43,985 nucleotides of DNA from contig JAJXWQ010000023.1 of assembly GCA_021781555.1 (NCBI GenBank), forward strand, positions 1 to 43,985, read 5' to 3'. This stretch comes from a bacterium. Lineage in GTDB: Bacteria > Cyanobacteriota > Sericytochromatia > S15B-MN24 > VGJW01. This document shows positions 16,608 to 34,775 of this stretch, piece after piece; positions within the stretch are counted from its first letter, which is position 1; every line of letters starts with the position of its first letter. The notes beneath the pieces are model-generated. The model did no database searches, was not told where the DNA came from, and worked only from the letters and a program-made list of their open reading frames with translations. Made by a program: the position numbers and the translations under genes.

Positions 16608-17738
16608 GTGGTTCCTGGAGATGTGCACCCGGTGGGAGTCAACTGGAACGGTAGCGTCGGGCAAACCCCCGGCGCCTGGCAGCCCCAGGTAGGGGGCAGC
16701 CAGTACGACCGTTCGGGCGTATCGGCCCCTCCGCCCTCCGATTCCGGCCTCGAGGATGCCGCCCGGCAGCGGTCCGCGGGCCCGCAGTTCTTCGGCTACC
16801 ACAACGACTCTTCGATCTTGGCGCGTCTGGCCCAGCAAGGGATCACCCCCAACGCCGTCAACCTCCGCATCGCGCAGCAGATGCTGCGCTACGGCATGCC
16901 GATCCATGCCGACGTCATCGCCCAGATCCGCCAGCTCTGGCTCGGGCTCGGGGCTCTGAGTCTGGTCGATCTCGAGGCGCTGATCGCGCTCTTCAGCTCG
17001 GGCTTGCCGACCGAGACGGCCAACCTGCAGGCCATGATCCAGCTGCTCTCGGGCGGTCCGGCCAGCCACCTGATGGCCCGGTTGACGATGGCGCTCAAGC
17101 AGCAGACGGCTCCCGGCCAGCTCGAGGCGCTCAAGACACTGCTGGCAAGCTACTGGAAGCTCGGCAACGGCGCCGGGGCTTTCCCCTCCGAGATCGCGCA
17201 GTTCAAGCAGATCACCGACCAGCTGCGGAGCCTGCTCATGGGGTCGGCTCTCCTGGCCGACGGCAGCCTGCCCGCAGAGGTCGCCGCCGAGATCGCGGCG
17301 CTCCGCCAGCTCTTCCAGGCCCAGTCGATGTTCCAGCGGATGCCGCAGAGCACCCTCTACGTCCCGTTCTTCCAGTGGCGGGACCAGCAGCCCATGCCGG
17401 GCGAGTTCCTGGTAGAGACCGAGCGCGACGCAGCCCACAAGGCCGCGCAGTACACGCACCTCACGGTCTCGGTCGACACCCGCAACCTCGGGCGCCTGAC
17501 CATCGATTTCACGGCTCTCCGGGGCCAGCTCGCCCTCAAGTTCGAGGTCCAGGACACGCCGGTCAAGAAGGTGGTCGAGTCCGGCCTGGCGAACCTCAGC
17601 CGCCGCCTGGTCCCCGCCACGGGCTACACCATCGCGGCGATGGGCGTCCACGAGGTAGGGCAGGGGCGCAGCATCTCGGTGCTCTTGCCCAAGCGGCGGG
17701 ACCTCCGCCGGCTGTCGCGGGCGATCGGGGTCATCTGA
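16608..17738 (+). CDS. Flagellar hook-length control protein (FliK-like)
   Basis: A 376-residue protein starting at GTG; GTG codons at 16623 and 16632 are alternatives. The first ~60 residues are Gly/Pro/Ser-rich, the middle is helical (residues ~70-250), and the C-terminal part fits the FliK C-domain: VDTRNLGRLTIDF, then ALKFEVQDTPVKKVVES and a final GYTIAAMGV strand. FliK measures hook length and triggers the export switch through FlhB. Downstream lies an FlhB-C-like gene, the same pairing as ylqG-ylqH of Bacillus, which supports the call. It opens the first flagellar operon, and its stop overlaps the next ATG (TGATG). Confidence 0.72.
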   Translation: MVPGDVHPVGVNWNGSVGQTPGAWQPQVGGSQYDRSGVSAPPPSDSGLEDAARQRSAGPQFFGYHNDSSILARLAQQGITPNAVNLRIAQQMLRYGMPIHADVIAQIRQLWLGLGALSLVDLEALIALFSSGLPTETANLQAMIQLLSGGPASHLMARLTMALKQQTAPGQLEALKTLLASYWKLGNGAGAFPSEIAQFKQITDQLRSLLMGSALLADGSLPAEVAAEIAALRQLFQAQSMFQRMPQSTLYVPFFQWRDQQPMPGEFLVETERDAAHKAAQYTHLTVSVDTRNLGRLTIDFTALRGQLALKFEVQDTPVKKVVESGLANLSRRLVPATGYTIAAMGVHEVGQGRSISVLLPKRRDLRRLSRAIGVI

Positions 17739-18264: not shown

Positions 18265-19002
18265 ATGATCAGGGGCATCTACGCCGCCGCCTCGGGCATG
18301 ACGTTCGAGCAGAAGGCGGTCGACATCGACGCCAACAACCTGGCGAACCTCAACACGACCGGCTACAAGCGCGAGGAGCCTATCGCCGCGTCGTTCCACG
18401 ACGTGCTCATCGAGATGGCGAATCGCACTCCGGGGACGGGCGACACCCTGCCCGAGGGCGTGCAGCTGGCCGGGACCTACCGCAACGAGGCCCCCGGAGA
18501 CCTGCGTCAGACGAACAACCGGCTGGACCTTGGCCTGGTCAACGGCGGCCAGTTCTTCGTCACCAAACGCCCCGACGGCACGCAGCTCCTCACGCGCGAC
18601 GGAGCTTTCACCCGCGACCGACAGGGCGACCTGGTCACCTCGGATGGGGCTCAGGTCGAGGCCGAAGGCGGAGGTCCCATCAACCTCCCGGCCGACATGC
18701 GAAACATAAAGATCCACGACGACGGGACGATCACCAATGATGGGACCGTGATCGACAAGATCCTGGTCGTCGCTCCGAACCAGGCCGAACTCTCGCAGTT
18801 CCCCCTGGCCACGGGCGCCCTGACGCCGGCAACCGGCGTCTCGATGCGCCAAGGGTATCTCGAATCCAGCAACGTGAACGCCGTGACCGAGATGGTGCGC
18901 CTGATCGAGGCAAGCAAGATCTTCGCCTTCGAGCAAAAGGCCGTGACCGCTCACGACCAGATGCTACAAGCTGCCACCCAGCAAGTCGGCAAGACGTCAT
19001 AA
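18265..19002 (+). CDS. flgF: Flagellar proximal rod protein FlgF
   Basis: Rod subunit of the FlgF/FlgG family, 245 residues. It begins MIRGIYAAASGM and has the conserved N-terminal ANNLANLNTTGYKR. The LDLGLVNGGQFFVTKR segment and the C-terminal GYLESSNVNAVTEMVRLIEA helix complete the family pattern. It is called FlgF rather than FlgG because the next gene is a better FlgG. It starts 3 bases after the FlhB-C-like stop, with AAGGATG at the junction. Confidence 0.88.
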   Translation: MIRGIYAAASGMTFEQKAVDIDANNLANLNTTGYKREEPIAASFHDVLIEMANRTPGTGDTLPEGVQLAGTYRNEAPGDLRQTNNRLDLGLVNGGQFFVTKRPDGTQLLTRDGAFTRDRQGDLVTSDGAQVEAEGGGPINLPADMRNIKIHDDGTITNDGTVIDKILVVAPNQAELSQFPLATGALTPATGVSMRQGYLESSNVNAVTEMVRLIEASKIFAFEQKAVTAHDQMLQAATQQVGKTS

Positions 19003-19046: not shown

Positions 19047-19823
19047 ATGATGCACGCGATCTGGACCGCCGCCACGGGCATGCAAGCCCAACAGATGCGG
19101 ATCGACGCCATCGCCAACAACCTCGCCAACGTCAACACGACCGCCTTCAAGAAGAGTGACGTCGAATTCCAGGATCTCCTCTACCAGGAGGTCCAGAGCC
19201 CCAACGTCGACGACGAAGGTATCCAGCTGGGCTTGGGTGTCCGGCCGACCGCGATCGTCCAGAACCAGGCGCAGGGCAACATGCAGGTGACGAACAACCC
19301 CCTGGATCTCGCGATCGACGGCCAGGGCTACTTCCAGGTCATCCAGAACGATGCATCGGGCACCCCGGCCTACACGCGGGACGGCTCCTTCCAGGTCAAC
19401 GCCACCGGGCAGCTCGTCACGAGCACCGGCCTGCTGTTGAGCCCCGGCGTCCAGATCCCGCAGGGCGCCACCGACGTTACCATCCGGGAGAACGGCCAGG
19501 TCTTCGCCCAGCAACCCGGCCAGACCGAGCAGGTGCCGATCGGCCAGATCAGCCTGTTCACCTTCCCCAATGCGGCCGGTCTCAAGGCGCTGGGCAACAA
19601 CATCTACTCGCCCACCAGCGCATCGGGCGTCGCGGTCGAGGGCAATCCGGGCAGCGCGGGTGGCGCGGGCTTCGTCCGGCAGGGCATGCTCGAGACCTCC
19701 AACGTCGAGCTCGTCACCGAGATGGTCATGATGATCGCCACGCAGAAGGCCTACGACACGTCGTCCAAGGCGATTTCCGTCGCCAGCACGATGATGGACA
19801 CCACCAACCAGCTGGTTAAGTGA
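19047..19823 (+). CDS. flgG: Flagellar distal rod protein FlgG
   Basis: Distal rod subunit, 258 residues. The N-terminus MMHAIWTAATGMQAQQMRID with IANNLANVNTTAFKKS is diagnostic, as are LDLAIDGQGYFQV and the C-terminal GMLETSNVELVTEMVMMI. A strong GAAGGAG ribosome binding site precedes the ATG. It is followed by flgA 10 bp later. Confidence 0.95.
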   Translation: MMHAIWTAATGMQAQQMRIDAIANNLANVNTTAFKKSDVEFQDLLYQEVQSPNVDDEGIQLGLGVRPTAIVQNQAQGNMQVTNNPLDLAIDGQGYFQVIQNDASGTPAYTRDGSFQVNATGQLVTSTGLLLSPGVQIPQGATDVTIRENGQVFAQQPGQTEQVPIGQISLFTFPNAAGLKALGNNIYSPTSASGVAVEGNPGSAGGAGFVRQGMLETSNVELVTEMVMMIATQKAYDTSSKAISVASTMMDTTNQLVK

Positions 19824-19833
19824 GGTTGCAAAC

Positions 19834-20556
19834 TTGAGGGTCCAGTTGGCGTTCCTGGCGGCGATGGCCACGGTCATCTCCGCCCGACCCGCCCTCGCCC
19901 TCACCGAGGCCAAGGTACTGGATTTCGTGCGCAGCGAGGCCGCGCAGAAGTATCAGGTCGGCCTCAAGGACGTCCAGGTCCAGTGGAAGGGTGCTCCGCT
20001 GTCGATGATCACCCACGGGCTGCCCAAGCACCCGCACCTGCAGCTCGGATCCGTGTACACGCTGTCGGGAACCATGCCGGTGCCGATCGAGGTCTGGGAT
20101 AAGGGAAAGCAGATCACGACGATCTTCCCGGAGCTCGAGGTCGACGTCTGGGAGAAGGTTCTGGTCGCCTCGGCTTACATCCCGATGGGTCAGCCCGTGA
20201 GTACCAGCGATATCAAGATCGAGCGCCGCATGATGTCGATGCTCGGCAGCCAGCCCCTGACTTCGGTGCGGAGCCTGGCGGGCGCAGTCGCAGCTCGCGA
20301 TATTCCACCGGGGATGGTCATCATCGGCGGGATGACGTCGGTGCCGCCGCTCATCCGGAGCGGGACGATGGTCAACGTCAAGCTGGTCACGGGTGGTTTG
20401 ACGATCTTCACCACCGGCCAGGCTATGCAGGACGGTCGGGATGGCCAGGCCATCCGCGTGCTCAATCCGGCCAGCAACAAGGATTACACGGGGATCGTGG
20501 TGGGCCGCAATGCGGTCGAGGTGAATCTCGAGGCAGGGGAGGACGACGAGCCGTGA
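19834..20556 (+). CDS. flgA: Flagellar P-ring chaperone FlgA
   Basis: Periplasmic chaperone for assembly of the FlgI P-ring. The start is a TTG with GAGG upstream. A signal peptide ends near RPALAL, followed by the N-terminal domain and the C-terminal SAF domain (VLVASAYIPMGQPVSTSDI, then AARDIPPGMVII and the closing IRVLNPASNKDYTGIVVG). Length (240 residues) is normal. The stop overlaps the flgH start (GTGA). Confidence 0.88.
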   Translation: MRVQLAFLAAMATVISARPALALTEAKVLDFVRSEAAQKYQVGLKDVQVQWKGAPLSMITHGLPKHPHLQLGSVYTLSGTMPVPIEVWDKGKQITTIFPELEVDVWEKVLVASAYIPMGQPVSTSDIKIERRMMSMLGSQPLTSVRSLAGAVAARDIPPGMVIIGGMTSVPPLIRSGTMVNVKLVTGGLTIFTTGQAMQDGRDGQAIRVLNPASNKDYTGIVVGRNAVEVNLEAGEDDEP

Positions 20557-21164
20557 AACGCACTCGTAGCTTGACGTTCCTGTTCGCATTCCTGTATGGC
20601 GTGCTGGTGGCCGTTCCGGCCCTGGCTGACTCGCTCTTCACGGATTCAAACTCCGGCGGATTCATCTCGGATCAGATCGGAGATCGCCGCTCGGCCCTCG
20701 GCCCCGGCGCGCTCATCACGGTCCTGGTCAACGAGAACATCCAGGCTCAGCAGTCGGCCAACACGACCACGAGCAAGGACTCGCACCTCACGACCACCTG
20801 GGATTTTGGTTCGCTCCTGCCCAACTGGTCGGCGTCCAAGATGGACCTCGAGGGCAAGGATCAGTTCACCGGCGACGGTACGACCACGCGGGGCGGGTCG
20901 ATCACGATGTCCGTGGCCTGCCAGGTACAGGACATCCTCCCGGACGGCAGCCTGCGCATCAAGGGCACCAAGGAGCTCGTGGTGAACGAGGAGCAGAGCA
21001 CGGTGGTCCTGTCGGGCATCGTACGGCCCTACGACATCAACTCCCTCAACCAGGTGACGAGCGACAAGATCGCAGACCTCAAGCTCGACTACCAGGGCTC
21101 GGGCCCGAACTCGGCCAAGGCCACGCCAGGCCTCCTGAGCCGGGTGCTCAACTGGATGTTCTGA
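20553..21164 (+). CDS. flgH: Flagellar L-ring protein FlgH
   Basis: Forms the outer-membrane L-ring around the rod; its presence argues for a diderm cell. The 203-residue protein has a signal peptide ending VPALADS and conserved FlgH stretches DRRSALGPGALITVLVNEN, a GGSITMSVACQVQDILPDG region, LRIKGTKELVVNEEQ and SGIVRPYDI. FlgH is normally a lipoprotein. Here there is no Cys near the signal cleavage site, so it appears to be processed by ordinary signal peptidase. It begins at GTG overlapping flgA and ends overlapping flgI. Confidence 0.92.
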   Translation: MKRTRSLTFLFAFLYGVLVAVPALADSLFTDSNSGGFISDQIGDRRSALGPGALITVLVNENIQAQQSANTTTSKDSHLTTTWDFGSLLPNWSASKMDLEGKDQFTGDGTTTRGGSITMSVACQVQDILPDGSLRIKGTKELVVNEEQSTVVLSGIVRPYDINSLNQVTSDKIADLKLDYQGSGPNSAKATPGLLSRVLNWMF

Positions 21165-22294
21165 TGCCTTCTAGCCGCCCGCTGAACTTCTTTCTCGTGC
21201 TCATCGTGGCGCTGTCGGGGCTCCTCCCGACGGCCGCCGGCGCGCAGGTCCTGGTGGGCCAGCCGGTCCGGCTCAAGGATATCGCCGTCATCTCGGGGGC
21301 CCGGGACAACTGGCTCCACGGCCTGGGGCTGGTCGTCGGTCTGGACGGCTCGGGCGATTCCCAGTCGACCGGATTCACGGATCGGGCCCTGCAGAACCTC
21401 ATCGAATCCAGCGGGCTCTTCCCCAACGAGCCGATCCGACCCAAGAACGTGGCGGTGGTGTCCGTGGACGCCAAGCTGCCGCCCTTCGTCAAGCCCGGTG
21501 AACCCATCGACGTGACGGTCTCCTCCATCGGCGACGCCAAGAGCCTGGCCAACGGCGTCCTCATCGCCACGCCACTCAAGGGAGCGGACGACAAGGTCTA
21601 TGCGGTTGCCCAGGGGCCGCTCTCGACCGGCGGCTTCGGCGTCACCTACAACGGCAGCATGGTCAAGAAGAACGACACCCTCGTGGCGAGGATTCCCGAC
21701 GGGGCGATCGTCGAGCGCAGCGTCCCCGTCACGGTCCTCGACGCCAACGGGTTCATGTACATCAACCTGCTCAATCCGGACTTCGTCACCGCGGCCCGGG
21801 CCGCGGCGGCCATCAGCAAGTCCTACCTCGGGGCGGCCCAGGCGATCGATGCCGCCACGATTCGCGTCTACGTGACGAGCCGCTACCGCAACGATCTGGT
21901 CGACCTGGTGGCCCGGCTCGAGAGCCTGGACGTCACGCCCGACGAGGTGGCCAAGGTCATCGTCGAGGAGCGGACGGGCACCATCGTCCTCGGATCGCAG
22001 GTGCGGATCTCGCCCGTGGCCATCAGCAGCGGCGGCCTGATCATCAAGGTCCAGACCACCACGACCGTCTCCCAGCCCTCCGCCCTCTCCTCGGGATCGA
22101 CCCAGGTCGTGCGGAATTCGACGGTCTCGGCCAACGAGCAAAAAGCCAAGACCGTGGTCTTCGACCAGGGCACGACCCTGGGGCAGCTGGTCCGGGCCCT
22201 CAACGCGCTCGGGGTGACCCCCCGCGACCTCATTTCGATCCTGCAAAACATCAAGGCGGCCGGGGCCTTGAACGCCCAGCTAGAGGTGATCTGA
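21164..22294 (+). CDS. flgI: Flagellar P-ring protein FlgI
   Basis: Periplasmic P-ring protein, 376 residues. A signal peptide (ends near AAGAQV) is followed by VRLKDIAVISGARDNWLHGL, then GLVVGLDGSGDSQ, the conserved VVSVDAKLPPFVKPGEPIDV and the C-terminal GTTLGQLVRALNALGV-type end. Overlaps flgH upstream and flgJ downstream by one base each. Confidence 0.95.
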   Translation: MPSSRPLNFFLVLIVALSGLLPTAAGAQVLVGQPVRLKDIAVISGARDNWLHGLGLVVGLDGSGDSQSTGFTDRALQNLIESSGLFPNEPIRPKNVAVVSVDAKLPPFVKPGEPIDVTVSSIGDAKSLANGVLIATPLKGADDKVYAVAQGPLSTGGFGVTYNGSMVKKNDTLVARIPDGAIVERSVPVTVLDANGFMYINLLNPDFVTAARAAAAISKSYLGAAQAIDAATIRVYVTSRYRNDLVDLVARLESLDVTPDEVAKVIVEERTGTIVLGSQVRISPVAISSGGLIIKVQTTTTVSQPSALSSGSTQVVRNSTVSANEQKAKTVVFDQGTTLGQLVRALNALGVTPRDLISILQNIKAAGALNAQLEVI

Positions 22295-22812
22295 TGCCGC
22301 TTGTGCCCCCGCCGCCGCCGCTTCCAGGTACCCCCGGCCGCCCCCGGACGAGCGGTCGCAGTCCCGGTTCGCTTTCGACCCCGGCAACCGGCGCTCCGGC
22401 CACGGACCCCTGGCTGGCGACCCCGACCTCATCGGCGGCCAGATCCGGGTTGACCTCGCCGGCCTCGGAAGTGCCCCCGGAGCCGATCGGCGTCGAGGGC
22501 GAACTCCAGCAGATGCTGGCTTCCGTGCCTCAGCACATGCCGATCGCAAACGCCGCGGATGCCGCAAAGGATTTTGCAGCCGTTCTTTTCGGGTACATGT
22601 TCTCCGAGATGCGGCCTCACGAGGACAAGGATGGGCTCCTGGGGGGCGGCGATTCGGAGATGTTCATGGAGTTCTTTGACGAGGCCATCGGCCGCGACAT
22701 GGCCGACGGGCCCGGCAACCCGCTGGTAAAAGCCCTGATCCAGGAGCTGACTCCCGAGTCTTCCAAGTCCTCCAAGTCCTCCAAGTCCGTCAAGCCGGCC
22801 AAGGGGCGATAG
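22294..22812 (+). CDS. flgJ: Rod-binding FlgJ N-domain protein
   Basis: A 172-residue FlgJ-type protein with only the rod-binding domain (about residues 95-150: KDFAAVLFGYMFSEMRP, EMFMEFFDEAIGRDMA); the muramidase domain of enterobacterial FlgJ is absent. The first 65 residues are Pro/Ser/Gly-rich. The C-terminus has a short tandem repeat (SSKSSKSSKSVK), encoded by 9-base repeats at about 22759-22794. It probably scaffolds rod assembly. The position after flgI is normal. Confidence 0.85.
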   Translation: MPLVPPPPPLPGTPGRPRTSGRSPGSLSTPATGAPATDPWLATPTSSAARSGLTSPASEVPPEPIGVEGELQQMLASVPQHMPIANAADAAKDFAAVLFGYMFSEMRPHEDKDGLLGGGDSEMFMEFFDEAIGRDMADGPGNPLVKALIQELTPESSKSSKSSKSVKPAKGR

Positions 22813-22818
22813 GAGCTC

Positions 22819-23556
22819 ATGGACAAGAACGTCGCCCCGCCCAAGGCCAAGGCGCCGGGCCTCAACGATGAGGCCATCAAGAAGTACACGCCGATGGTCC
22901 GGGCGATCGCGCGGCGCATCTCCACCAAGCTGCCCCGCCACTACGATGTCGAGGATCTGGTGTCGGATGGCATGATGGGGCTCCTGGCGGCCCACGAGCG
23001 CTTTGACCCCGACCGCGGGGTCAAGTTCGAGACCTTCGCGACCTACTACATCAAGGGCGCCATCCTCGACAATCTTCCCAAGCTCCCGACCGTCCCCAAG
23101 AACAAGCAGGTGCAGGCGGCCGAGGAACTCGCACAGGCCGAGGGCGAGTACGGCGGCGAGGGCGAAGGCGACGAAGCCGAGGCCGACAGCGCCTTGCTGG
23201 TCAACAAGATCACCCAGCTCACCTACAGCTACATCCTCAGCCTCGACGCCCCATCCGGGGGAGATGGCGAGGAGGGTTTCTCGCTGCTCAACCAGCTGGG
23301 CAAGTCGGACAAGATCCAGCACGAGATGGAGCTCGAGGAGCTCCAGCAGCTCCTGCGCCTGACCATCGAACAGCTCCCCAACCAAGAGCGGACGACACTG
23401 CGCTACTACTACTTCCACAACATGTCGTTCAACGAGATCGGCCAGAAGCTCGGGCTCTCGGAATCGTGGGTGAGCCGCATCCACCGGCGCGCGCTCGAGC
23501 AGCTGCGCCAGAAGCTCGGCAAGAAGAAGTCCCTCGACGATTTCATCAGCTGGTAG
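22819..23556 (+). CDS. fliA: Flagellar-type sigma factor (FliA/WhiG)
   Basis: Alternative RNA polymerase sigma factor, 245 residues. Region 2 is clear (YTPMVRAIARRISTKLPRHY, then VEDLVSDGMMGLLAAHERFD and FETFATYYIKGAILD), and region 4 ends with the helix-turn-helix LGLSESWVSRIHRRALEQLR. The segment after region 2 is unusual. Family members normally have DELRxxDWVPR there, whereas this protein has NLPKLPTVPKNKQ followed by an acidic insert (about 100-125, EGEYGGEGEGDEAEA). Promoter recognition may therefore differ. It is the last gene of the first flagellar operon and would drive late flagellar genes located elsewhere. Confidence 0.85.
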   Translation: MDKNVAPPKAKAPGLNDEAIKKYTPMVRAIARRISTKLPRHYDVEDLVSDGMMGLLAAHERFDPDRGVKFETFATYYIKGAILDNLPKLPTVPKNKQVQAAEELAQAEGEYGGEGEGDEAEADSALLVNKITQLTYSYILSLDAPSGGDGEEGFSLLNQLGKSDKIQHEMELEELQQLLRLTIEQLPNQERTTLRYYYFHNMSFNEIGQKLGLSESWVSRIHRRALEQLRQKLGKKKSLDDFISW

Positions 23557-25192: not shown

Positions 25193-25201
25193 AATCCCTC
25201 G

Positions 25202-27121
25202 ATGCTTGAGCAGCTCGAGCCCACTGCCGCTCCGCCCCGCGCAGGAGCGCCTCGATCCGTCCGGATCGGTATCCTGGCGGCGATCGCCTTGATCTGCGCC
25301 GCGCTGGTCTGGTGGAGCGCATGGGGCCAGTCCGTCACGTCAGACGAGGCCGCGCACCTCCCCGCCGGCTACAGCTACCTGCGCACCGGAGACTTCCGTC
25401 TCAATCCCGAGCATCCGCCGCTGGCGAAGCTCGTCTGCGCCCTGCCCGTCCTCGCGTTCCACCCCAAGGTGCCGATCCCGTCCGTAGCCTGGAAAGAGGA
25501 CGACGAGTGGGCTTTCGGGTGGAAATTCCTGGCCGAGAACAAGGCCATCCTCGTGCCGATGGTCGCCTGGGCGCGCCTGCCGATGGCCTTGCTGACGGGC
25601 CTGCTCCTGTTCGTGACGGGCTGGTGGGTCTCCGAGGTCTTCGGGCTGGGAGCCGGGATCCTCGCGGCCCTGCTGCTCGGCGCCAACCCCGAGATTCTCA
25701 ATCACGGGCGCTGGGTCACGACCGACATGCCGGCGGCTGCGCTGGGGTTCTTTACGCTTTATACCGCCTGGAAGTGGCTGTCCCGGCCAGGCTGGAAGCG
25801 GGCCTCGATCATGGGGCTCACGCTCGGACTGGCGGTCGCATCCAAGGATTCGTGCCTGATCCTGCCCCCGATGATGCTGCTACAGGCCCTGGCATTCATC
25901 TTCTCGGGTCGGGCCCGGCCCAGCTGGCGGGACTGGTCGATCGCACTGGTAGCCTGCGCGGCAGGCCCTGTCATCGTGTTGATGGCCTGCTACGAGTCCT
26001 GGACCGGACCGCTGCGCTATATCAGCGGCATGACGGGCATCAACGCCAACCACCTGGTCTTCTACCTCCGCTACCTGATGGGCCACATCCAGTACAGCGT
26101 CTACCCGCAGTACTTCGTCATGGCCTGGCTCCTCAAGACGCCATTCCCCCTGCTGGTCGCAGCCCTCGTCGGGATCGGAGCCCTGGCGGTGGCGGTCGGT
26201 GCAGCGCTCCGGAACAAGACCGGCCTCGCACCCGACGTCTGGGATGGCCTCGCGCTTCTGGCGGGAGCGGTCCTGGTCTTCGCCTTGATGAGCTGGAAGG
26301 CCGACGACATCGGGGTCCGGTACATCCTGCCGACCGTGCCGATCTTCGCGTGGCTGTCGGCCAGGGCCTTCGCCCGGACGGGTCGGCGCGGCCGCGCCGT
26401 GTTGGTGGTCCTGGCCCTCTGGGGCCTGGTGGACGCCTGGCGCGCCTGGCCAGATCTCGGGGGGGCCTTCGACGAGTTCCTGCCCGGCCCGACCGTCGCC
26501 TATCTGGACGACTCGAACGTCAACTGGGGCGAGGGGCTCATCGCTCTCAAAGCCGAGATGAAGCGACTGAAGCTGGATCGCATCGGTTACGGAGCGCTGG
26601 GTGGCCGGCTCGATCCACGCATCTATGGCCTCAAGCTCGATCGGTCGGTCGAAGGGTTGGCCGGCCTGCCCGAGCCCGGCTGGTACGCCTTCGACCCCAG
26701 CTTCCTGCTCCGCTGCCCGGGCTTTCTCTGGCTCGCCTACCGGCGTCCGGATTTCAACGCCGATGGCTACTGGATCTACCACCTGCAAGGCGACATCCCG
26801 GAGCAGGCGCACCAGGCCTACACCGCGCTCTTGAAGCAACGACCCTACGATCCCTTCCTCTGGTACCACGTCGCGTCGCAGGACGAGGCCGAGGGCAAGC
26901 TCCACAGGGCCGAGAAGGAGCTCGGCATCGCGCTGAAGATCTGGCCGGGGTACCTGGACGCCCGCAAATCCCGAGCTGCCCTCCGCCTGCGCCTGGGGGA
27001 CGCCGCCGGAGCGAAGGCGGACGATGCGATCATCGCCGAGATCGTCAAGTACGTGCTGGCCGGGCTCCGGAACAAGGCGCCCGGTTCCTCCGGCGGTCTC
27101 TGGGCGCCGCTGGGCGGATAG
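25202..27121 (+). CDS. GT-C-fold membrane protein with C-terminal TPR region
   Basis: A 639-residue protein with about ten hydrophobic helices after a first helix at ~25-40. SVTSDEAAHLPAGYSYLRTG with FRLNPEHPPLAKLV is the classic N-terminal loop of protein-mannosyltransferase-like (GT39) enzymes, with Asp-Glu as the likely catalytic acidic pair. TTDMPAAALGFFTLYTAW and VAYLDDSNVNWGEGLI also match that group. The C-terminal ~90 residues form TPR-like helices (AHQAYTALLKQRPYDPFLWY). It probably transfers a glycan or acts on polyprenyl-linked sugars; donor and acceptor are unknown. It is cotranscribed with the preceding GT-C gene (9-bp gap). Confidence 0.7.
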   Translation: MLEQLEPTAAPPRAGAPRSVRIGILAAIALICAALVWWSAWGQSVTSDEAAHLPAGYSYLRTGDFRLNPEHPPLAKLVCALPVLAFHPKVPIPSVAWKEDDEWAFGWKFLAENKAILVPMVAWARLPMALLTGLLLFVTGWWVSEVFGLGAGILAALLLGANPEILNHGRWVTTDMPAAALGFFTLYTAWKWLSRPGWKRASIMGLTLGLAVASKDSCLILPPMMLLQALAFIFSGRARPSWRDWSIALVACAAGPVIVLMACYESWTGPLRYISGMTGINANHLVFYLRYLMGHIQYSVYPQYFVMAWLLKTPFPLLVAALVGIGALAVAVGAALRNKTGLAPDVWDGLALLAGAVLVFALMSWKADDIGVRYILPTVPIFAWLSARAFARTGRRGRAVLVVLALWGLVDAWRAWPDLGGAFDEFLPGPTVAYLDDSNVNWGEGLIALKAEMKRLKLDRIGYGALGGRLDPRIYGLKLDRSVEGLAGLPEPGWYAFDPSFLLRCPGFLWLAYRRPDFNADGYWIYHLQGDIPEQAHQAYTALLKQRPYDPFLWYHVASQDEAEGKLHRAEKELGIALKIWPGYLDARKSRAALRLRLGDAAGAKADDAIIAEIVKYVLAGLRNKAPGSSGGLWAPLGG

Positions 27122-27152
27122 CCCGAGCGTCTTCGACCGCTGGCCGGCCAAC

Positions 27153-27175
27153 CGCTCCACGAGCTTTTCGGAGCG
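27153..27175 (+). other. Hairpin upstream of flgB
   Basis: CGCTCC (27153-27158) and GGAGCG (27170-27175) form a perfect stem with an 11-base loop, about 32 bases after the GT-C stop. It may terminate that transcript. A TATGAT box lies downstream near 27200, ahead of flgB, but no matching -35 is evident. Confidence 0.3.
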
Positions 27176-27223
27176 AATAGTCGGCGTGGAAGCAGGGTAT
27201 GATCCGCCTCGGAGGGACCGGCC

Positions 27224-27625
27224 TTGCTGTTCAGTAGAGAGCTTTCGGGCGTCGAACGGGCGATGGATGGTCTGGCCTTGCGCTTCCAGGCCGAGGCCCA
27301 CAATGTCGCCAACATCAACACGCCGGGCTATCAGCGCCAGAGCGTCCCCTTCGAGGCTTCCCTCCGGGACGCGATCGAGGAGTCCGAGATCCCGATCAAT
27401 CCCGACAATCCTTCCAACGGTCCGATCCCGGATCCCTCCGCCATTCTCAAGGCCTGGACCCCCACGATCACGGTGGACTCGCTGCCGCAGCGCGTAGATG
27501 GCAATTCCGTCTCCATCGAACAGGAGATGGGAGACCTGGCCAAGACCGTGCAGGAGTTCGAGACCGAGACGGAGTGGGTCGCCTCCGAGTACCGGGACAT
27601 CAAGTTCGTCATCGACGCCAAGTAG
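27224..27625 (+). CDS. flgB: Flagellar rod protein FlgB
   Basis: Proximal rod subunit, 133 residues. It starts at TTG with GGAGGG eight bases upstream. The conserved FQAEAHNVANINTPGYQRQS lies near residue 22, and the C-terminal helix (ETEWVASEYRDIKFVIDAK) is typical of the rod proteins. It opens the second flagellar operon. In most bacteria flgC follows directly; here a large lipoprotein gene intervenes. Confidence 0.92.
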   Translation: MLFSRELSGVERAMDGLALRFQAEAHNVANINTPGYQRQSVPFEASLRDAIEESEIPINPDNPSNGPIPDPSAILKAWTPTITVDSLPQRVDGNSVSIEQEMGDLAKTVQEFETETEWVASEYRDIKFVIDAK

Positions 27626-27656
27626 GCGCCGATCTATCCGATTCGAGTCTGCACCT

Positions 27657-29627
27657 GTGAATCGCCGTATCGTCTTCCTCACCTGCGCCTCGCTTCTGGT
27701 CGCCGGTTGCCCGCATGCCAGGGTCTCCGCGACGAGCAACACCCCGGTCGCGGCAACGCCGATGGTCGACCTCAGCGGCACGGTGCGCGTCGGCGCGACG
27801 CCGATCACGGAGCTGACCAACGCGTCTCCGTTGACCGAGGCCGATCCACTCACCAATGCCTCGCCGCTGACCAATGCCTCGCCCCTGGCTCCGGTGCAGT
27901 TGACCAACGCCAGTCCGCTCACCAACGCCTCCCCCTTTCGCGTGCAAGCCACCGCTCCCCAGGTTCTCGTCGAGGCGATCGACTCCGATACCGGAGCGCG
28001 CCTGGCCGCCATCGACGCGGATGCGCAGGGCCGCTATACCTTCTCGCTCCCGTCGAGCACCCTGCGCAAGGCCATCGTGGTTCAGGCCACGGAGTTCAGC
28101 GGAGGCCAGATCGTCGGATTCCTGGCCGCCCCCGCTCCGCTGGCGCCAGACCAATCCGGAGCCCAGACGATCGACCTCACCCCCGCGACCACGGCGGTCC
28201 TGTTTTCCGAGGCTCTCATGGCAGGAGTGCGTACGCAATTCAACGTACACACGGGCTTCCGGGGCTTCCGGTCGCACGAGCTTGCCGATCTCGTCGCACT
28301 CACCAGCCGGTCGAAGGTGGCGAAGCTGGCGCAGCGTCTCGACAACCTGGCCGCGTTCACCCAGGCGCCGTCCTTCGATAGCATCCTGGCCAAGGTCACC
28401 AAGGCCTCGTCGGTCTTGGCCCGCGGCGCGGTGGCCGACGGCATGCAGGCCGGTGGTGCTCCGGTGCCGGCCTTCGTGGCGGGGATGCACGCGGTCATGG
28501 ACGGAGTCGCGAGCGCTCCGCCGCCCTCCGATCCGGTCCTGGCCATCAGCGCCGCGGCAGCGGCGGTGACGCCCGCCATCGTCCTGCAGGAGGAGGCTCC
28601 GATCGCCCAGGAGGTCGCTCAGGCCCCCGAGGCCGCACCCGTCCAGGCGACTCCACCGCCGGGTCCACAATTCGTCGCATTGCCGCAGGTGCAGATCAGC
28701 GGCGCAACCTGGTCCATTTCGTATCTCGGTTCGGATGGCCAGGACCTCTACGCCAACGTCTACAACGCCTCCCAGTCGATGGTCGCCCAGATCGACGAGA
28801 GCACGGCGATCTCGGGGGCCCAGTGGGCTGCCGGCACGCTCCCGAACGGGTCGGCGATCACGGGAATCGGCAATTCGAGTGGCGCTCCTGGAGTGTCCTT
28901 GTTCACCCCTGCAGCGGGCCCGTGGTTCTCGTTCGACGGCATCGCCAAGCCAGTCCCGCCGATGGGCTCTGCCGGGTCGGGCGCCGTTCCGCAGATCCTT
29001 TACTACGACGGTACCACCGCGCTGGGAGGCAGCCCCATGGCGATCCCGGGCTCGATCGAGGTCGACAGCCTGGCGGTCGCGTCGGGGCTCTGGGCCTCGG
29101 CCTCGCTGCCGGTCTCAGGCACATCGAACGCGACCCTCGTGGGTGCCCTGGTGGAGCCGGCCAATCCGGGCATCGCCTGGGCTGGCTTCCAGGACGTAGG
29201 CGGCCTGACCGCGACCGGACCGAGCACGGTGTCGGTCTATGTCTACCGGCTCCCGACCGCGGGCGCGCCCCCGACCCTGACCCCCGTCGGCGCGTTCGCC
29301 GATGCGATCGGCTTCTGGACGCCTGCCGGCGCCTATCTCCTGATCGATCCCCAGACGAACCCCGAGCTCATCGGACTGGCGAACGGCCAGCTGGGCAGCC
29401 CCAGCCCGCTGCCCTTCGGGACTCCCACGATCTCGGCCGATTACGACATGGGGGCCGATGCCAGCTACCTGTACCTATCCCGCAAGGATGGCTTGATCGA
29501 TCGCCGTCCGATCGCGGGAGGCCCCTGGACCCCGTGGGCGTCGTTCTCCGCGGGGGTGGATCAGATCCGGATCGCCCAGGGCCACGTGTTCGTCAGCTCG
29601 GGTGGCACGGTGTACGCCACCCCCTGA
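27657..29627 (+). CDS. Large lipoprotein with TNASPL repeats, unknown function
   Basis: A 656-residue protein started at GTG 27657, 31 bp after flgB. The leader RRIVFLTCASLLVAGC ends in a lipobox, so it is probably lipid-anchored. A segment of TNASPL-type hexapeptide repeats (residues ~53-94) is followed by a CarboxypepD_reg-like or beta-sandwich segment (VLVEAIDSDTGARLAAID) and an Ala/Pro-rich linker. The C-terminal ~300 residues are of beta type and contain repeated strands such as GATWSISYLGSDGQDLYANV, VSLFTPAAGPWFSFDG and ASYLYLSRKDG. The C-terminal part may be a beta-propeller. I recognise no family. Its place inside the flgB-flgC block suggests a role at the cell surface linked to the flagellum, but this is unproven. 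Confidence 0.8.
   Translation: MNRRIVFLTCASLLVAGCPHARVSATSNTPVAATPMVDLSGTVRVGATPITELTNASPLTEADPLTNASPLTNASPLAPVQLTNASPLTNASPFRVQATAPQVLVEAIDSDTGARLAAIDADAQGRYTFSLPSSTLRKAIVVQATEFSGGQIVGFLAAPAPLAPDQSGAQTIDLTPATTAVLFSEALMAGVRTQFNVHTGFRGFRSHELADLVALTSRSKVAKLAQRLDNLAAFTQAPSFDSILAKVTKASSVLARGAVADGMQAGGAPVPAFVAGMHAVMDGVASAPPPSDPVLAISAAAAAVTPAIVLQEEAPIAQEVAQAPEAAPVQATPPPGPQFVALPQVQISGATWSISYLGSDGQDLYANVYNASQSMVAQIDESTAISGAQWAAGTLPNGSAITGIGNSSGAPGVSLFTPAAGPWFSFDGIAKPVPPMGSAGSGAVPQILYYDGTTALGGSPMAIPGSIEVDSLAVASGLWASASLPVSGTSNATLVGALVEPANPGIAWAGFQDVGGLTATGPSTVSVYVYRLPTAGAPPTLTPVGAFADAIGFWTPAGAYLLIDPQTNPELIGLANGQLGSPSPLPFGTPTISADYDMGADASYLYLSRKDGLIDRRPIAGGPWTPWASFSAGVDQIRIAQGHVFVSSGGTVYATP
27813..27938 (+). 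repeat. TNASPL-coding tandem repeats
   Basis: Imperfect 18-base repeats within the lipoprotein gene encode TNASPL, TEADPL, TNASPL, TNASPL, a spacer APVQL, then TNASPL and TNASPF. Codon choice varies between units (AACGCG, AATGCC, AACGCC), so the peptide is conserved more than the DNA, which suggests selection on the protein sequence. Confidence 0.85.
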
Positions 29628-29889
29628 CCCCGTCCAGGGCGGTCGACGGGCGACCCGCAACGCCGACGCTCACCGCGAAAGGCCTGCTGGCTTTAACAAT
29701 CGGGCGCGATGTGCGTTAAATCGGCCCGCTCCTGCTTATCGAATCGATCGAAGACGGGTATAGGAGCCGCGGGTGGCCGCTTGTCTGCAAGCCCACCGAT
29801 TCCTCGCCAGCAGAGTGTCGCCAGCTGCCCTCTCTGTCGGCACTCCGGGAAGAGCCCTGTTCCGGCCGGGACCGCAAGGAGGTTTCCCC
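29628..29889 (+). promoter_or_regulatory. 262-bp leader before flgC
   Basis: Gene-free stretch between the lipoprotein and flgC, locally AT-richer at 29690-29765 with TTTAACAATCG, GCGTTAAATC and a TATAGG box. An internal promoter for flgC-fliE-fliF-flhA is plausible, but no -35/-10 pair is convincing. A strong ribosome binding site AAGGAGG at 29876-29882 sets the flgC start. Confidence 0.35.
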
Positions 29890-30297
29890 ATGGGCATGAT
29901 GAGCGTCTTTGACGTCGGTGGCAGCGCACTGACCGCCGATCGCATGTGGCTCGAGATCATCGCCAACAACCTTGCCAACTCCCAAACCACCCAGACACCG
30001 GAGGGCGGTCCCTACCGTCGCCGTGTGCCGGTATTCTCCGAGATCCTCGACCAGCACACCGGCCAGCCCGCGGGGGTCGAGATGACCGGTATCGCCTACG
30101 ACCAGTCGCCATTCCAGCGCCGCTACGACCCGGGGAATCCGGCCGCCGACAAGAACGGCTTCGTGCTCATGCCCAACGTCAATCCCGTCAACGAGATGGT
30201 CGACCTCATCACGGTGGAGCGGACGTACGACGCCAACACCTCGGTGATCGCGGCCCTCAAGAACATGTCCAACAAGGCCATGGATATCGGAAAGTAA
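29890..30297 (+). CDS. flgC: Flagellar rod protein FlgC
   Basis: Proximal rod subunit, 135 residues. Start at ATG 29890 (MGMMSVFDVGGSAL), with AAGGAGG nearby. The family signature is clear: MWLEIIANNLANSQTTQTPE, GPYRRRVPVFSEIL, then NVNPVNEMVDLITVERTYDA and the C-terminal heptads. It is 7 bp ahead of fliE. Confidence 0.95.
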   Translation: MGMMSVFDVGGSALTADRMWLEIIANNLANSQTTQTPEGGPYRRRVPVFSEILDQHTGQPAGVEMTGIAYDQSPFQRRYDPGNPAADKNGFVLMPNVNPVNEMVDLITVERTYDANTSVIAALKNMSNKAMDIGK

Positions 30298-30304
30298 GCT
30301 GACG

Positions 30305-30700
30305 ATGCTGATCAACTACACGACCATGCCCGGGATGAACCACATCGGGCCGACGCACGGTGCCTTCGGCGACCTCTCCAAGCTCCTGGACAGCCAGCAG
30401 CTGCCGATGCCAGGGATCAACAAGTTCGATGCCGAGTTCCAGGGCGCCGGCCAGGCGCAATCTCCCCAGCCCAGCGTCGGCGACGACTTCTCGAACGTTC
30501 TCAAGAACGCCATCGACCAGGTCGACGAGCAAGATCAAAAGGCCCGCACAGCCGCACTCGACATGTCCCTCGGCCAGAACATCGATCCCCACACCGTGAT
30601 GATCGAGTACGCCAAGGACTCGACGATGATCCACCTTGCCAGCGGCATCTCCACCCGCATGGCCCAGGACTTCACCACCTTGATGAACATGCAGGTCTAG
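30305..30700 (+). CDS. fliE: Flagellar hook-basal body protein FliE
   Basis: Adapter between the MS-ring and the rod, 131 residues. The C-terminal half is conserved FliE: FSNVLKNAIDQVDEQDQKAR, then a helical pair and the AQDFTTLMNMQV end. The N-terminal ~60 residues are Gly/Pro/Gln-rich and not conserved. Normal position after flgC and before fliF. Confidence 0.88.
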   Translation: MLINYTTMPGMNHIGPTHGAFGDLSKLLDSQQLPMPGINKFDAEFQGAGQAQSPQPSVGDDFSNVLKNAIDQVDEQDQKARTAALDMSLGQNIDPHTVMIEYAKDSTMIHLASGISTRMAQDFTTLMNMQV

Positions 30701-30709
30701 GCGCCCTAG

Positions 30710-32632
30710 ATGGGCAATCTCCTCGCCAACCTAAGCCCCCAGCAGCGCCTGATCGCCGCCGGCGGGGCTCTGGTCGTCGTGCTCGCGCTCCTGGTCACCA
30801 TGGTCCTGGCGTTCCGCGGCGGCGGCGGCAACTCCCAGGGGCAAAACAAGGGCCGGGACAAGGGCTACGTGACGATCTTCCGCCACCTCGACCAGAAAGA
30901 GCAGGACGAGGCTGCCGCCGCCCTGGGAGCTGCCCACATCACCCAGTTCGACATCAGCGAAGGCGGCACGTTGATGGTGGCCAAGGACAAGGAACCCGAG
31001 GCCCGCATCGCCCTGGGCGAAGCACAGGTCCCGAAGAACCCCGCCGAGCAGGGTCTCGAGATCTTCAACAAGCAGAACTTCATCTCGACGGACTTCGACA
31101 AGCGGATGGAGTACATCCGCGGCCTGTCGGGCGAACTCACCCGGTGGGTGCGCAAGGTCAACGGAGTCCAGGACGCGGCCGTCCTGGTCAACATGCCGCA
31201 GGACTCGCTGTTCCAGTCCGAGAAGAAGCCCGTCACCACGAGCGTCATGGTCAAGATGCAGCCCGGTCAGCAGCTCACGACCAACGAGGTCGAAGGCATC
31301 CAGCACATGATCGCCTCGGCCGTTCCGGGCGAGACCGTCGACAACGTGACGATCGTCGACAATAACGGCAACCTGCTCTCGAGTGGCATGGAGTCCAACG
31401 CCGGCGGTGCCAACGGCGGCGATGCCATGCTCTCGAAGGAGATCGACGAGCAGAACCGCATCACCCAGGGCATGGAGATCGACCTCCAGAACCGCCTGCA
31501 GGGGATGCTCGACAAGCTCCTGGGCCCCGGCAAGGCCGTCGTCGAGGTCGATCTCGAGCTCGACTTCAGCCACCGGGTCATCCGCAACGTGCTCGAGGCG
31601 CCCGTCACGGCCAACGGCGTCCCCCTGCCCGCCGACCGCACGGTCAAGAACCAGGTTGCGGGCGCAGGCCAGGCCGGCGGCCCGGTGGGGACCGCGGCCA
31701 ACATGCCCACCTATCCGGCCGTGCCACTTAGCACCGGGGGCACGCCCGTCACGAGTCCGGTGACGAAGCATTACGAGACCGACCAGGCGGCCTTCAACAC
31801 GTCCCAGCAGATCGAACAACCCGCATCGGGCGGCATCAAGCGCATGAGCATCGCCGTGATGGTCCCCGATACGGTCGCCGCCGACCAGCTCCCGATCCTG
31901 CAAAATCTCATCGCCACGGCAGCTGGAGCCGACCCTGCGCGTCGCGACCAGGTCACGGTCGATCGCGTCCACTTCGACAACTCGCTCTTCAATTCGCTCA
32001 AGCAGCAGCTTTCCAGCCAGAAGAAACCCGCCAAGCTCAAGGGTCCATCGCTCGGCTGGAAATGGGTCTGGATCATCGGTGGCGTGGTCCTGCTGCTCGC
32101 GCTGATCATCAGCGTCATCGCCCGGAGGCGCCGCCCGGCCGAGAATCCTTTCGAGGCCCTCACGTCGTCGCTCGAGGCCGATTCGCTTCCCGGCGGCTTC
32201 GATCAGGCCTCGGCGCTGGGCGGCTTCGCACCGGATCAGATCCCGGGTCTGGGGCAGCCGCCCGCCGGCTACGGCGCGGATCCGTACGGCGCCCAGCAGC
32301 TTGGCGGGCAGCCCTACGGGGCCGAATCCTTCGGCCAGCCGGGGGGCTTCGCCCCGCCTCCTCCGGGTGGCCCGCAAGAGGGGCCCTTCAACTTCCTCTA
32401 TGAGGTCGCGCCCGAGCAGGTTGCCGAGCTCCTGTCCCAGGAGCGCCCGGCGACGGCCGCCGGCGTGCTCGGGCAGCTCGACAGCAACTTCGCGGAGGCC
32501 GTGATCGCCAACATGCCGCCGGAGATCCAGCAGGAGGTGTTCGGCCGCCTCTCGCAGGGGGCCAGCCTGCCGGCGATGAGCCAGCGCATGGTCTCCCAGA
32601 CGCTCCGTCGCAAGCTCGGCGTTCCCGCCTAG
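30710..32632 (+). CDS. fliF: FliF MS-ring protein with C-terminal FliG-like domain
   Basis: The MS-ring is the flagellar base in the inner membrane. This 640-residue protein has transmembrane helices at ~14-36 and ~449-471, enclosing the YscJ/FliF periplasmic domains (GYVTIFRHLDQKEQDEA, YIRGLSGELTRWVRKVNGV, AAVLVNMPQDS). After a Gly/Pro/Gln-rich linker (~490-555), residues ~560-640 read NFLYEVAPEQVAELLS, AGVLGQLDSNFAEAVIAN and MPPEIQQEVFGRL. These match the repeated helical module of FliG, whose typical signature is EHPQTIALVL, then LP-E-Q-V-RIA. FliF normally ends in a short FliG-binding tail. No fliG gene follows; flhA is next, 34 bp away. Confidence 0.9.
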   Translation: MGNLLANLSPQQRLIAAGGALVVVLALLVTMVLAFRGGGGNSQGQNKGRDKGYVTIFRHLDQKEQDEAAAALGAAHITQFDISEGGTLMVAKDKEPEARIALGEAQVPKNPAEQGLEIFNKQNFISTDFDKRMEYIRGLSGELTRWVRKVNGVQDAAVLVNMPQDSLFQSEKKPVTTSVMVKMQPGQQLTTNEVEGIQHMIASAVPGETVDNVTIVDNNGNLLSSGMESNAGGANGGDAMLSKEIDEQNRITQGMEIDLQNRLQGMLDKLLGPGKAVVEVDLELDFSHRVIRNVLEAPVTANGVPLPADRTVKNQVAGAGQAGGPVGTAANMPTYPAVPLSTGGTPVTSPVTKHYETDQAAFNTSQQIEQPASGGIKRMSIAVMVPDTVAADQLPILQNLIATAAGADPARRDQVTVDRVHFDNSLFNSLKQQLSSQKKPAKLKGPSLGWKWVWIIGGVVLLLALIISVIARRRRPAENPFEALTSSLEADSLPGGFDQASALGGFAPDQIPGLGQPPAGYGADPYGAQQLGGQPYGAESFGQPGGFAPPPPGGPQEGPFNFLYEVAPEQVAELLSQERPATAAGVLGQLDSNFAEAVIANMPPEIQQEVFGRLSQGASLPAMSQRMVSQTLRRKLGVPA

Positions 32633-32666: not shown

Positions 32667-34775
32667 ATGCCTCAGGGCCGCAATCAGCTCATTCCCGATC
32701 TGGTCCTGGCGGGGATCGTCATCCTCGTCTTGACGATCCTGATCATCCCGCTGCCGACGTGGGCCATCGACATCCTGCTGGTCGCCAATCTGATCGCGGC
32801 GATCATCACGATCTTTGTCGCGCTCTACATCGTCAAGCCGCTGGAGTTCGCCTCCTTCCCCTCGTTCCTGCTGATCATGGCCCTGTACCGCCTGGCCATG
32901 AGCGTCGCGACCAGCCGCTCGATCCTGTCCAACGCCGAGGCCGGCAAGGTCATCGCCACCTTCGCCAACTTCGTGGTGGGGGGCAACTACGTCGTCGGCA
33001 TCATCCTGTTCGTCATCCTGGTGGTGGTGAACTTCATCGTCATCACCGAGGGCGCCAAGCGCGTTGCGGAAGTCGCCGCCCGGTTCACCCTGGACGCCAT
33101 GCCGGGCAAGCAGATGTCGATCGACGCCGACCTCGCCGCCGGGCTCATCGACGCCGAAGGCGCCAAGAAACGCCGCTCGGAACTCGAGCGCGAGGCCAAC
33201 TTCTTCGGGTCCATGGACGGTGCCAACAAGTTCGTCCGAGGCGACGCCATCGCCGCCATCATCCTCATCATCGTCAACATCGTGGGCGGCATCCTGATCG
33301 GGCTGTTCCAGAAGGGCATGGACCTTCCCCAGGCGCTGCAAACCTACACCCTGCTCACCGTTGGCGACGGCCTGGTCGGACTCATCCCCTCGCTGCTGAT
33401 CTCGATCTCGGCTGGTTTCGTCACGACCCGCGCCGCGTCAGAGAACAACCTGGCGACCGACCTCAAGAACCAGCTGTTCGGCAGCCCCAAGGTTCTCGGC
33501 ATCGCGGCGTTCGTGATCGGGATGGTCGGTTTCATCCCGGGTTTCCCCAAGCTCGTGATGTTGCCGATGGCCGGAATTCTCGCGTTCGCCGCGTTCATGG
33601 CCTGGCGGCGCGAGAACGCGCCGGCTGCCGAGGGGGGGCCGGCCGAATACGGCATGGCCGGAGAAGAATACGACGACTACGCGCCGGAGAGCGACGAGGA
33701 TCTCAAGAATCCAGAGAACGTCATGAAGATGCTGGGGGTGCCCCCCCTGACTCTCGAGCTTGGACTCGACCTGGTTCCCCTGGTCGATCCGGGGCTTGGT
33801 GGCGAGCTGATGGACCGGGTCGTGCCGATGCGCGTGTCGATCGCCCTGGACATGGGTTTCGTCATGCCTGGCATTCAGTTCAAGGACAACCTCAACCTGC
33901 GGCCCAATGCCTACCAGATCCTGGTCAAGGGCAACGTGGTCGCCTCCGGCGAGTTGCTGGTCGGTTACATGCTGGCGATCCAGCAGGCCAGTACCGATAC
34001 CTCGCAGGAACTGGTGGGCTTCCCCACCGTCGATCCGGCCTTCAACAAAGCGGCGGTCTGGGTGGCCGGCGCGGAGGCCCAGCGAGCCGCCCAGCTCGGC
34101 TACCTCATCCAGGATCCGACGAACGTCCTCACCGCCCACCTCGAGGAGGTCGTGCGATCGCATGCCTTCGAGATCCTGAGCCGCGAGGAAGTCAAGATGA
34201 TGCTCAATCGCCTCCAGGAAAAGGCCCCCATCACGGTCAAGGAGCTCGTCCCTGAGATCCTGGCCCTGGGCGAAGTCCAGCGCGTGCTGCAGAATCTCCT
34301 GCGCGAACGGGTGAGCATCCGGGATCTCGCCACCATCCTCGAGAAGCTTTCGGACTTCGGCAAGATGACCAAGGACACGAACGTGCTCACCGAGCTCATC
34401 CGCCAGGCTCTGGCCCGCAACATCTGCTCGGCCCTGGCCAACGACGAGGGCGTCATCGAGGTCATCACCCTCGACGGGGGCGTGGAGGGTTCGATCCAGC
34501 AGGCCATCCAGCAAGGGCCCCAGGGCCCGACCCTGGCCCTCAACCCGCAAATTGCCCAGCTCATCCTCGCCCGCCTGGCCACGCTCTACAACGATGCCAC
34601 CGCACAGGGCCAGAATCCCGTGCTCCTCACGAGCCCGGCCGTTCGCCCCCATGTCAAGGGCCTGGTGGACCGCAACTTCCCGACCATGTCGGTCATCTCG
34701 TTCGCCGAGATCTCGGCCAAGTTCAAGGTGCAGCAGATCGGCCTGGTCTCGATCGCGGTCGGCGCGACCGCGTAG
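32667..34775 (+). CDS. flhA: Flagellar export gate protein FlhA
   Basis: Integral-membrane component of the flagellar type III export gate, 702 residues. The membrane half has about eight helices and the FHIPEP-type loop SRSILSNAEAGKVIATFANF, AMPGKQMSIDADLAAGLI and the conserved EGAKRVAEVAARF. The cytoplasmic half runs from a charged linker (~350) to VISFAEISAKFKVQQIG near the C-terminus. Length and motifs are normal. The TAG stop lies at the first bases of a downstream 104-bp repeat copy. Confidence 0.95.
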   Translation: MPQGRNQLIPDLVLAGIVILVLTILIIPLPTWAIDILLVANLIAAIITIFVALYIVKPLEFASFPSFLLIMALYRLAMSVATSRSILSNAEAGKVIATFANFVVGGNYVVGIILFVILVVVNFIVITEGAKRVAEVAARFTLDAMPGKQMSIDADLAAGLIDAEGAKKRRSELEREANFFGSMDGANKFVRGDAIAAIILIIVNIVGGILIGLFQKGMDLPQALQTYTLLTVGDGLVGLIPSLLISISAGFVTTRAASENNLATDLKNQLFGSPKVLGIAAFVIGMVGFIPGFPKLVMLPMAGILAFAAFMAWRRENAPAAEGGPAEYGMAGEEYDDYAPESDEDLKNPENVMKMLGVPPLTLELGLDLVPLVDPGLGGELMDRVVPMRVSIALDMGFVMPGIQFKDNLNLRPNAYQILVKGNVVASGELLVGYMLAIQQASTDTSQELVGFPTVDPAFNKAAVWVAGAEAQRAAQLGYLIQDPTNVLTAHLEEVVRSHAFEILSREEVKMMLNRLQEKAPITVKELVPEILALGEVQRVLQNLLRERVSIRDLATILEKLSDFGKMTKDTNVLTELIRQALARNICSALANDEGVIEVITLDGGVEGSIQQAIQQGPQGPTLALNPQIAQLILARLATLYNDATAQGQNPVLLTSPAVRPHVKGLVDRNFPTMSVISFAEISAKFKVQQIGLVSIAVGATA

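Follow-up and report, generated by a model that had tools for sequence, protein, structure and literature searches.

A FliF protein ending in a FliG middle domain in a second flagellar system of the Sericytochromatia

Can a flagellar switch complex be organized around an MS-ring protein that itself ends in a piece of FliG? The question is raised by a gene at positions 30710..32632 of the window, by which we mean the whole stretch of 43,985 nucleotides that was analyzed. A preliminary description, made from the DNA letters and their translations, had read this gene as fliF with a FliG-like module at residues ~560-640, behind a long Gly/Pro/Gln linker, with flhA directly after it and no separate fliG beside it, and had supposed that the switch complex may be organized differently.

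The fused protein and its conservation

The gene, here called fliF2, encodes 640 aa and was assigned by profile searches, AlphaFold2 (AF2), and Foldseek as an MS-ring protein FliF with a C-terminal FliG_M; it and all other features of the window given below are on the + strand. Its score against the NCBIfam model TIGR00206 (fliF) is 192.1 bits, above the equivalog cutoff of 129.75, and without its tail it matches FliF structures in the PDB (6scn, E 4.6e-31). RBM1/RBM2 (YscJ_FliF, residues 51-224; 30860..31381) are matched by Pfam PF01514 (E 2.5e-48), with a genome search match in the same place, and the C-terminal periplasmic part (RBM3/collar, residues 267-422; 31508..31975) by PF08345 (E 3e-22). 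In the AF2 model these periplasmic domains are flanked by transmembrane (TM) helices at residues 10-35 and 449-474, the second of which (32054..32131) is also evident as a hydrophobic stretch, and Foldseek relates the model to Salmonella FliF (E 2e-22) and to RBM3 structures (E 7e-11).

After the second TM helix comes the expected Gly/Pro/Gln linker of about 80 residues (about 474-556; 32132..32377), which is disordered (AF2 pLDDT <50) and is also apparent from the alignment and from comparison with the C terminus of FliF1, the other FliF of this genome. The FliG-like module had likewise been recognized correctly. Residues 568-636 (ARM_M; 32411..32617) match positions 1-69 of the 76 in the Pfam FliG_M profile (PF14841) with 43-48 bits (cutoff, 25), the E value being 4.9e-11 for the whole of FliF2 (43.1 bits) and 1.9e-12 for the tail alone. 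In phmmer comparisons of the tail with the PDB, the significant matches are to FliG structures only (3ajc, E 5.5e-7; 1lkv, E 7.3e-7), and AF2, from a 16-sequence alignment, builds six tail helices at 561-636 (pLDDT 77-89). Among the best 50 Foldseek matches of the full model there were ring proteins only (FliF and EscJ type), and the tail gave no match of its own.

That the tail is instead an MgtE_N-type or other armadillo-like domain with a function unrelated to FliG is hardly credible. It does score weakly against MgtE_N (19.9-21.3 bits), but this is under the Pfam cutoff of 25.9 and far under the FliG_M score, and its PDB matches are all FliG except one that is insignificant. When the 16 aligned tails found in the class were compared by hhalign with 10 FliG1 sequences and with one MgtE of the class, the results were 97.9% (E 3.7e-13) and 39.6% (E 3e-4), respectively, so that FliG_M, PDB, and hhalign comparisons agree. 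The tail also sits at the FliF C terminus, which is where FliG normally docks.

Only one small FliG-like module is present, as had been proposed. FliG_N and FliG_C gave no Pfam match in FliF2, and the score against the FliG equivalog TIGR00207 (29.6 bits) is under the cutoff of 226.7. Judged by its domain content, FliF2 itself is not a FliG, as it carries FliG_M but no FliG_N or FliG_C. In known motors a short C-terminal helix of FliF binds FliG_N. FliF1 and the FliF proteins of the sister class have a C-terminal helix that reads '..ARLVRTWM' or 'EKIKSWIE' ('..EEVARLVRTWMMDD', 'EDAAEKIKSWIE'), and FliF1 has a weak match to residues 534-567 of PDB 12dr (E 0.14). Comparison with FliF1 shows that the canonical FliG_N-binding helix is absent from FliF2 and that the linker and FliG_M are in its place.

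The survey comprised tblastn searches over 98 relatives and a FliG_M profile search over 18 genomes of the class. Fused FliF2 was recovered in 16 of the 18 (G000 to G014 and G017; ORFs of ~610-657 aa), and every one of these orthologues, distant families included, ends in a FliG_M domain. The tails share the consensus F.FLY.V.PE.VA.LLS.ERPAT.AGVLAQLD...AE.VI..L.PEIQ.EVF.RL.....LPAMTQRMVSQ.L+RKLG, with 12 invariant residues (F560, F562, A572, E578, L587, A595, Q607, R613, L620, P621, L632, and L636); the linker is poorly conserved in length and sequence, with almost no invariant residues in the 16-sequence alignment. Since 16 genomes of the class share the join of fliF2 to FliG_M, and JAJYIO010000020.1 (MAG: bacterium isolate DBS2-1.bin124), an independent contig, has a copy of 97% identity, the join is not an assembly artifact. 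A frameshift or assembly fusion to a downstream fliG was considered and rejected, because flhA is the gene directly 3' and all 16 genomes show the same fusion.

For distribution beyond the class, the sister class and published papers served as evidence; a scan of contigs gave a single match, the near-identical MAG contig just mentioned. In the sister families, large genomes have no FliF matches and genomes of 1.7-2.3 Mb have one canonical FliF, a pattern that suggests a Sericytochromatia-like class of the Cyanobacteriota, whose uncultured members are probably non-photosynthetic. The FliF tree places FliF1 (100/99) apart from FliF2 (71/73), which is consistent with two old paralogues; because of this separation, the split seems to predate the families sampled.

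Two flagellar gene sets in one genome

The window holds one cluster of what we call system 2. It runs, in order, from a fliK-like hook-length gene at its head (16608..17738; PF02120, E 8e-8) through flgF2 (rod; 18265..19002; PF00460/PF06429), flgG2 (distal rod; 19047..19823; similarity to conserved cluster members), the P-ring chaperone gene flgA2 (19834..20556; PF13144, E 3e-23), the L-ring gene flgH2 (20553..21164; PF02107, E 6.5e-41), the P-ring gene flgI2 (21164..22294; the sole FlgI of the genome), a gene for a FlgJ-type rod-binding protein (22294..22812; PF10135, E 2.7e-4, below cutoff), and fliA2, encoding a sigma-28-type sigma factor (22819..23556; Sigma70_r2/r4, conserved in the cluster). 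These are followed by the proximal rod genes flgB2 (27224..27625; weak PF00460, conserved position) and flgC2 (29884..30297; PF06429/PF00460), fliE2 (30305..30700; PF02049, E 6e-13), fliF2, and the export gate gene flhA2 (32667..34775; PF00771, E 1.8e-243), which also follows fliF2 directly in the relatives examined. As fliE2 lies 10 bases upstream of fliF2 and flhA2 starts 34 bases downstream, in agreement with the preliminary description, no fliG adjoins fliF2.

Within 23657-29627 of the window, two large probable membrane proteins are encoded between fliA2 and flgB2, and a long protein with TNASPL repeats is encoded between flgB2 and flgC2. The window's genome differs here from most of the relatives read, in which flgB2 and flgC2 adjoin or nearly adjoin. 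In G007, a divergent flagellin-domain gene lies directly after flhA2 (L059:13409-14398) and is a candidate for the system-2 filament protein; G008 has two flagellin-domain genes near flhA2.

A second system-2 cluster, on contig C128 and in relatives, consists of flgD, flgE, fliM2, X464, fliN2, fliO, fliP, fliQ, and fliR, the order of the flgD-flgE part being taken from the window's genome only. Because the two clusters are on different contigs, we infer that they form one system from the conservation of their gene order and from the sets of paralogues. Neither cluster contains fliG, and FliH, FliI, and FliJ of system 2 were not found in the stretches read.

Profile searches of the window's genome found three FliG_M, two FliF, two FlhA, two full-length FlhB, and five FliMN_C. 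A full-length fliG, together with fliM and fliN, is among its genes, in a separate canonical system (system 1) on contigs C66 and C134, which has its own FliF1, FliG, FliM, FliN, and MotAB. Its gene order is flgB-flgC-fliE-fliF1 / fliF1-fliG1-fliH-fliI-fliJ-fliK-flgD-flgE-flbD-motA-motB-fliL-fliM1-fliN1-fliO-P-Q-R-flhB-flhA, with genes assigned by order and sequence and, for fliF, fliG, fliM/N, flhA, and flhB, also by Pfam models. The lack of a fliG noted earlier therefore holds for the locus and for system 2 but not for the genome, which encodes the full-length FliG of the canonical system and, in addition, a membrane-anchored FliG chimera (FGtm, described below).

Each genome has one FlgI gene (two neighboring ORFs in G017), always in the system-2 cluster where that cluster was read. 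System 1 (L014, L015, and L013) has no adjoining P-ring gene, and the flgA2-flgH2-flgI2 stretch of the window lies at 19834-22294. System 1 may borrow the P-ring or be periplasmic.

Other copies of flagellar domains were also seen. G013, G011, and G010 encode a second, divergent stand-alone FliG outside the flagellar clusters (L095:7257-8324, L096:7352-8422, and L097:6121-7119, respectively), which in G013 adjoins an enoyl-CoA hydratase-like gene. A small protein with a signal-like N terminus and only the FliF_C/RBM3 region is encoded at L049:9067-9777 (G000:C152) and L050:4237-4962; hhalign relates it to FliF2 (99.2%, E 1.7e-19).

Switch components and the route of torque

The idea of a differently organized switch is supported by the components of system 2, which, with no fliG in either cluster, has its own divergent FliM2, X464, and FliN2. 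CheY binds FliM within the first ~50 residues. FliM2 (X299) aligns by hhalign to residues 52-320 only of FliM1 (98.5%, E 1.7e-15), and the G017 orthologue is above the Pfam FliM cutoff (E 1.1e-9), so that FliM2 is a FliM minus the CheY-binding N terminus. Between fliM2 and fliN2 lies the gene for X464 (L016:9796-11190 and orthologues), which has a conserved polytopic membrane part followed by FliMN_C (E 4.9e-12). AF2 predicts several long membrane helices with good confidence and a poor C-terminal half; the membrane half has no convincing PDB match, and the SpoA part is the sole, weak resemblance to known structures. On this sequence evidence, X464 is a new kind of multi-spanning membrane protein whose C terminus is a FliN (SpoA) domain. 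FliN2 is an ordinary FliN.

ARM_M is the part of FliG that normally contacts FliM. We consider it somewhat more likely than not that the fused ARM_M serves, in place of FliG, as a covalently attached platform on which a C-ring of FliM2, X464, and FliN2 docks. FliF2 has lost the FliG_N-binding helix and carries instead a single ARM_M on a flexible linker. Because ARM_M is attached to each FliF2 chain, the FliF2 ring would display it covalently, replacing recruitment via FliG_N. ARM_M would then bind FliM2 or X464, the C-ring would rest on FliF2 without FliG1, and X464 may help to anchor it. Since the system-2 clusters lack the piece of FliG that normally receives the push of the motor, the switch ring must be assembled, and may also be powered, in an unusual manner. 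Against this platform stand the divergence of the FliM-contact motif, which is EHPQT in FliG1 and ERPAT, ERLPT, or EKPQS in FliF2 tails; the GGPG loop of FliM1, which has no recognizable counterpart in FliM2 by sequence comparison; and cluster membership, which is inferred. Given the diverged motif and the unrecognizable loop, the ARM_M-FliM2 interface may differ from the usual one, and tail and FliM2 have probably co-diverged there.

The platform is also challenged by a free FliG1, which most of these genomes encode and which could join the FliF2 ring. FliF2 rings might recruit FliG1, the fused ARM_M intercalating through ARM_M-ARM_C contacts so that a mixed switch ring keeps FliG_C. The presence of FliG1 with FliG_C in most FliF2-bearing genomes is in keeping with such recruitment, as is the existence of a second stator, MotA2B2, which needs a torque partner. 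However, the helix that would bind FliG_N is gone from FliF2, and the FliM and FliN of system 2 are diverged copies of its own. Furthermore, when FliG_C was counted over the whole class, none was found in the two family-f7 genomes, G015 (87% complete) and G017 (74% complete), whose incompleteness makes the absence suggestive rather than proof, and no FliF1 was found in them at this completeness; both have system-2 genes, FliP of the system-2 type only, and a single MotA. We thus regard recruitment of FliG1 as rather unlikely.

A further source of FliG_C for the FliF2 rotor could be FGtm, the third FliG-type protein of the window's genome (contig C4), which combines an RBM3-like periplasmic domain, a TM helix, and FliG_N/FliG_M/FliG_C. 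The chimera occurs in the window's genome, G001, G002, G003, G006, and G009 (L017:9679-11838 [G000:C4], L091:7392-9587, L092:8302-10143, L089, L090, and L093), and its periplasmic domain resembles FliF RBM3 (hhalign, 96.4%, E 1.2e-9). A contribution of FGtm is nevertheless very unlikely, since G005, G007, and G012 (91-98% complete) all have full FliF2 with a single FliG_C, which is that of FliG1, and since its gene in G006 and G009 adjoins those for MotA3B3 and for two proteins predicted to be secreted or in the envelope, rather than flagellar genes. The association of FGtm with its own MotA/MotB and two conserved proteins in these two genomes points to a rotary motor that stands by itself, with no flagellum.

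The MotA proteins form three groups: MotA1 (beside flbD and, where read, fliL), MotA2, and MotA3. MotA2 is paired with MotB2 and is nearly class-wide, in most genomes unlinked to flagellar genes, and MotB2 retains the membrane aspartate (YADMITLL; YGDLVTNL in G017) and an OmpA-type domain. As MotA2B2 occurs with these MotB2 features intact while the system-2 clusters have no FliG_C, system 2 may have a stator without an obvious FliG_C. The second MotAB pair leaves a purely structural role for the ARM_M platform incomplete, and, given this pair, the system-2 motor may rotate. In the strongest form of this idea, system 2 would be a MotAB-driven flagellum whose rotor lacks any FliG_C, the force being taken by, for example, FliM2 or X464. 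We hold this to be unlikely; if true, such a rotor would be an exception to the rule that FliG_C transmits the torque of flagella.

Alternatively, system 2 may be a nonrotating, export- or appendage-only system in which ARM_M does no more than hold a static C-ring or sorting platform in place and MotA2B2 has another use. The lack of FliG_C in system 2 and of a CheY-binding N terminus in FliM2 would fit, as would the f7 genomes G015 and G017, in which Flagellin_N gave no match, and the precedent of the chlamydial fusion (PMC4768692), which may be static too. Yet rod, hook, FliK, P- and L-rings, and sigma-28 are all kept, flagellin-domain genes accompany flhA2 in G007 and G008, and MotA2B2 is class-wide with the MotB aspartate and OmpA part intact, which makes a static system doubtful.

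Comparison with known systems

FliG is commonly seen as a torque and switch protein that no flagellum can do without. In the present case, a deeply conserved and seemingly complete flagellar system appears to have FliG reduced to a FliM-docking domain welded to the membrane ring, together with a FliM unable to bind CheY in the usual manner and a new switch-ring protein embedded in the membrane, so that it can now be tested how much FliG suffices for C-ring building and export and whether torque must pass via FliG_C. Within the same genome, system 2 shares with canonical system 1 a FliF ring, the ARM_M-FliM logic, and FliN. System 1, in contrast, has a separate FliG, with FliG_N and FliG_C, bound through the C-terminal helix of FliF, has a FliM with the CheY-binding N terminus, and has no membrane protein with a FliN domain. 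Two flagellar gene sets per genome also occur in Bradyrhizobium, Cereibacter, and Shewanella; to our knowledge, both sets keep a separate FliG in these bacteria.

Against NF004606 (PRK05934; cutoff, 297), which we take to be the chlamydial FliF-like family, FliF2 reaches 28.9 bits over two stretches, and the tail weakly touches the C terminus of this profile. By these scores, the two share an architectural idea but are not the same family. Our literature search found no paper on flagella of this class, no natural FliF-FliG fusion beyond the chlamydial one, and no description, in this class or within any full flagellar system, of FliF joined to FliG_M.

Artificial or mutant fusions of full FliF and FliG are known from Salmonella gene-fusion mutants (references in PMC4768692) and from Vibrio FliFG (PDB 8z4d; PMC11481574). 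As in FliF2, these have FliF and FliG in one chain, and the Salmonella and Vibrio fusions assemble MS-rings; unlike them, FliF2 has ARM_M only, in place of all or most of FliG, and is a natural, conserved state.

That rare natural fusions exist, as the preliminary description had stated, is confirmed by the Chlamydiaceae, in which a FliF of ~330 aa with a reduced periplasmic part is fused to the FliG M region, only FliF, FliL (the paper's spelling), and FlhA are present, and the bacteria are not thought to be flagellated (PMC4768692, Bergeron 2016). Both cases are natural FliF proteins whose cytoplasmic C terminus is a homologue of the FliG middle domain, with no full FliG attached. However, FliF2 is full length, with RBM1-3, and occurs amid rod, hook, P/L rings, FliM, FliN, and a sigma factor, with a second canonical flagellum alongside. 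FliF2 is thus a FliF by family with a chlamydia-like C terminus in a novel switch context, and the hitherto isolated chlamydial FliF-FliG fusion gains a parallel within a full flagellar setting.
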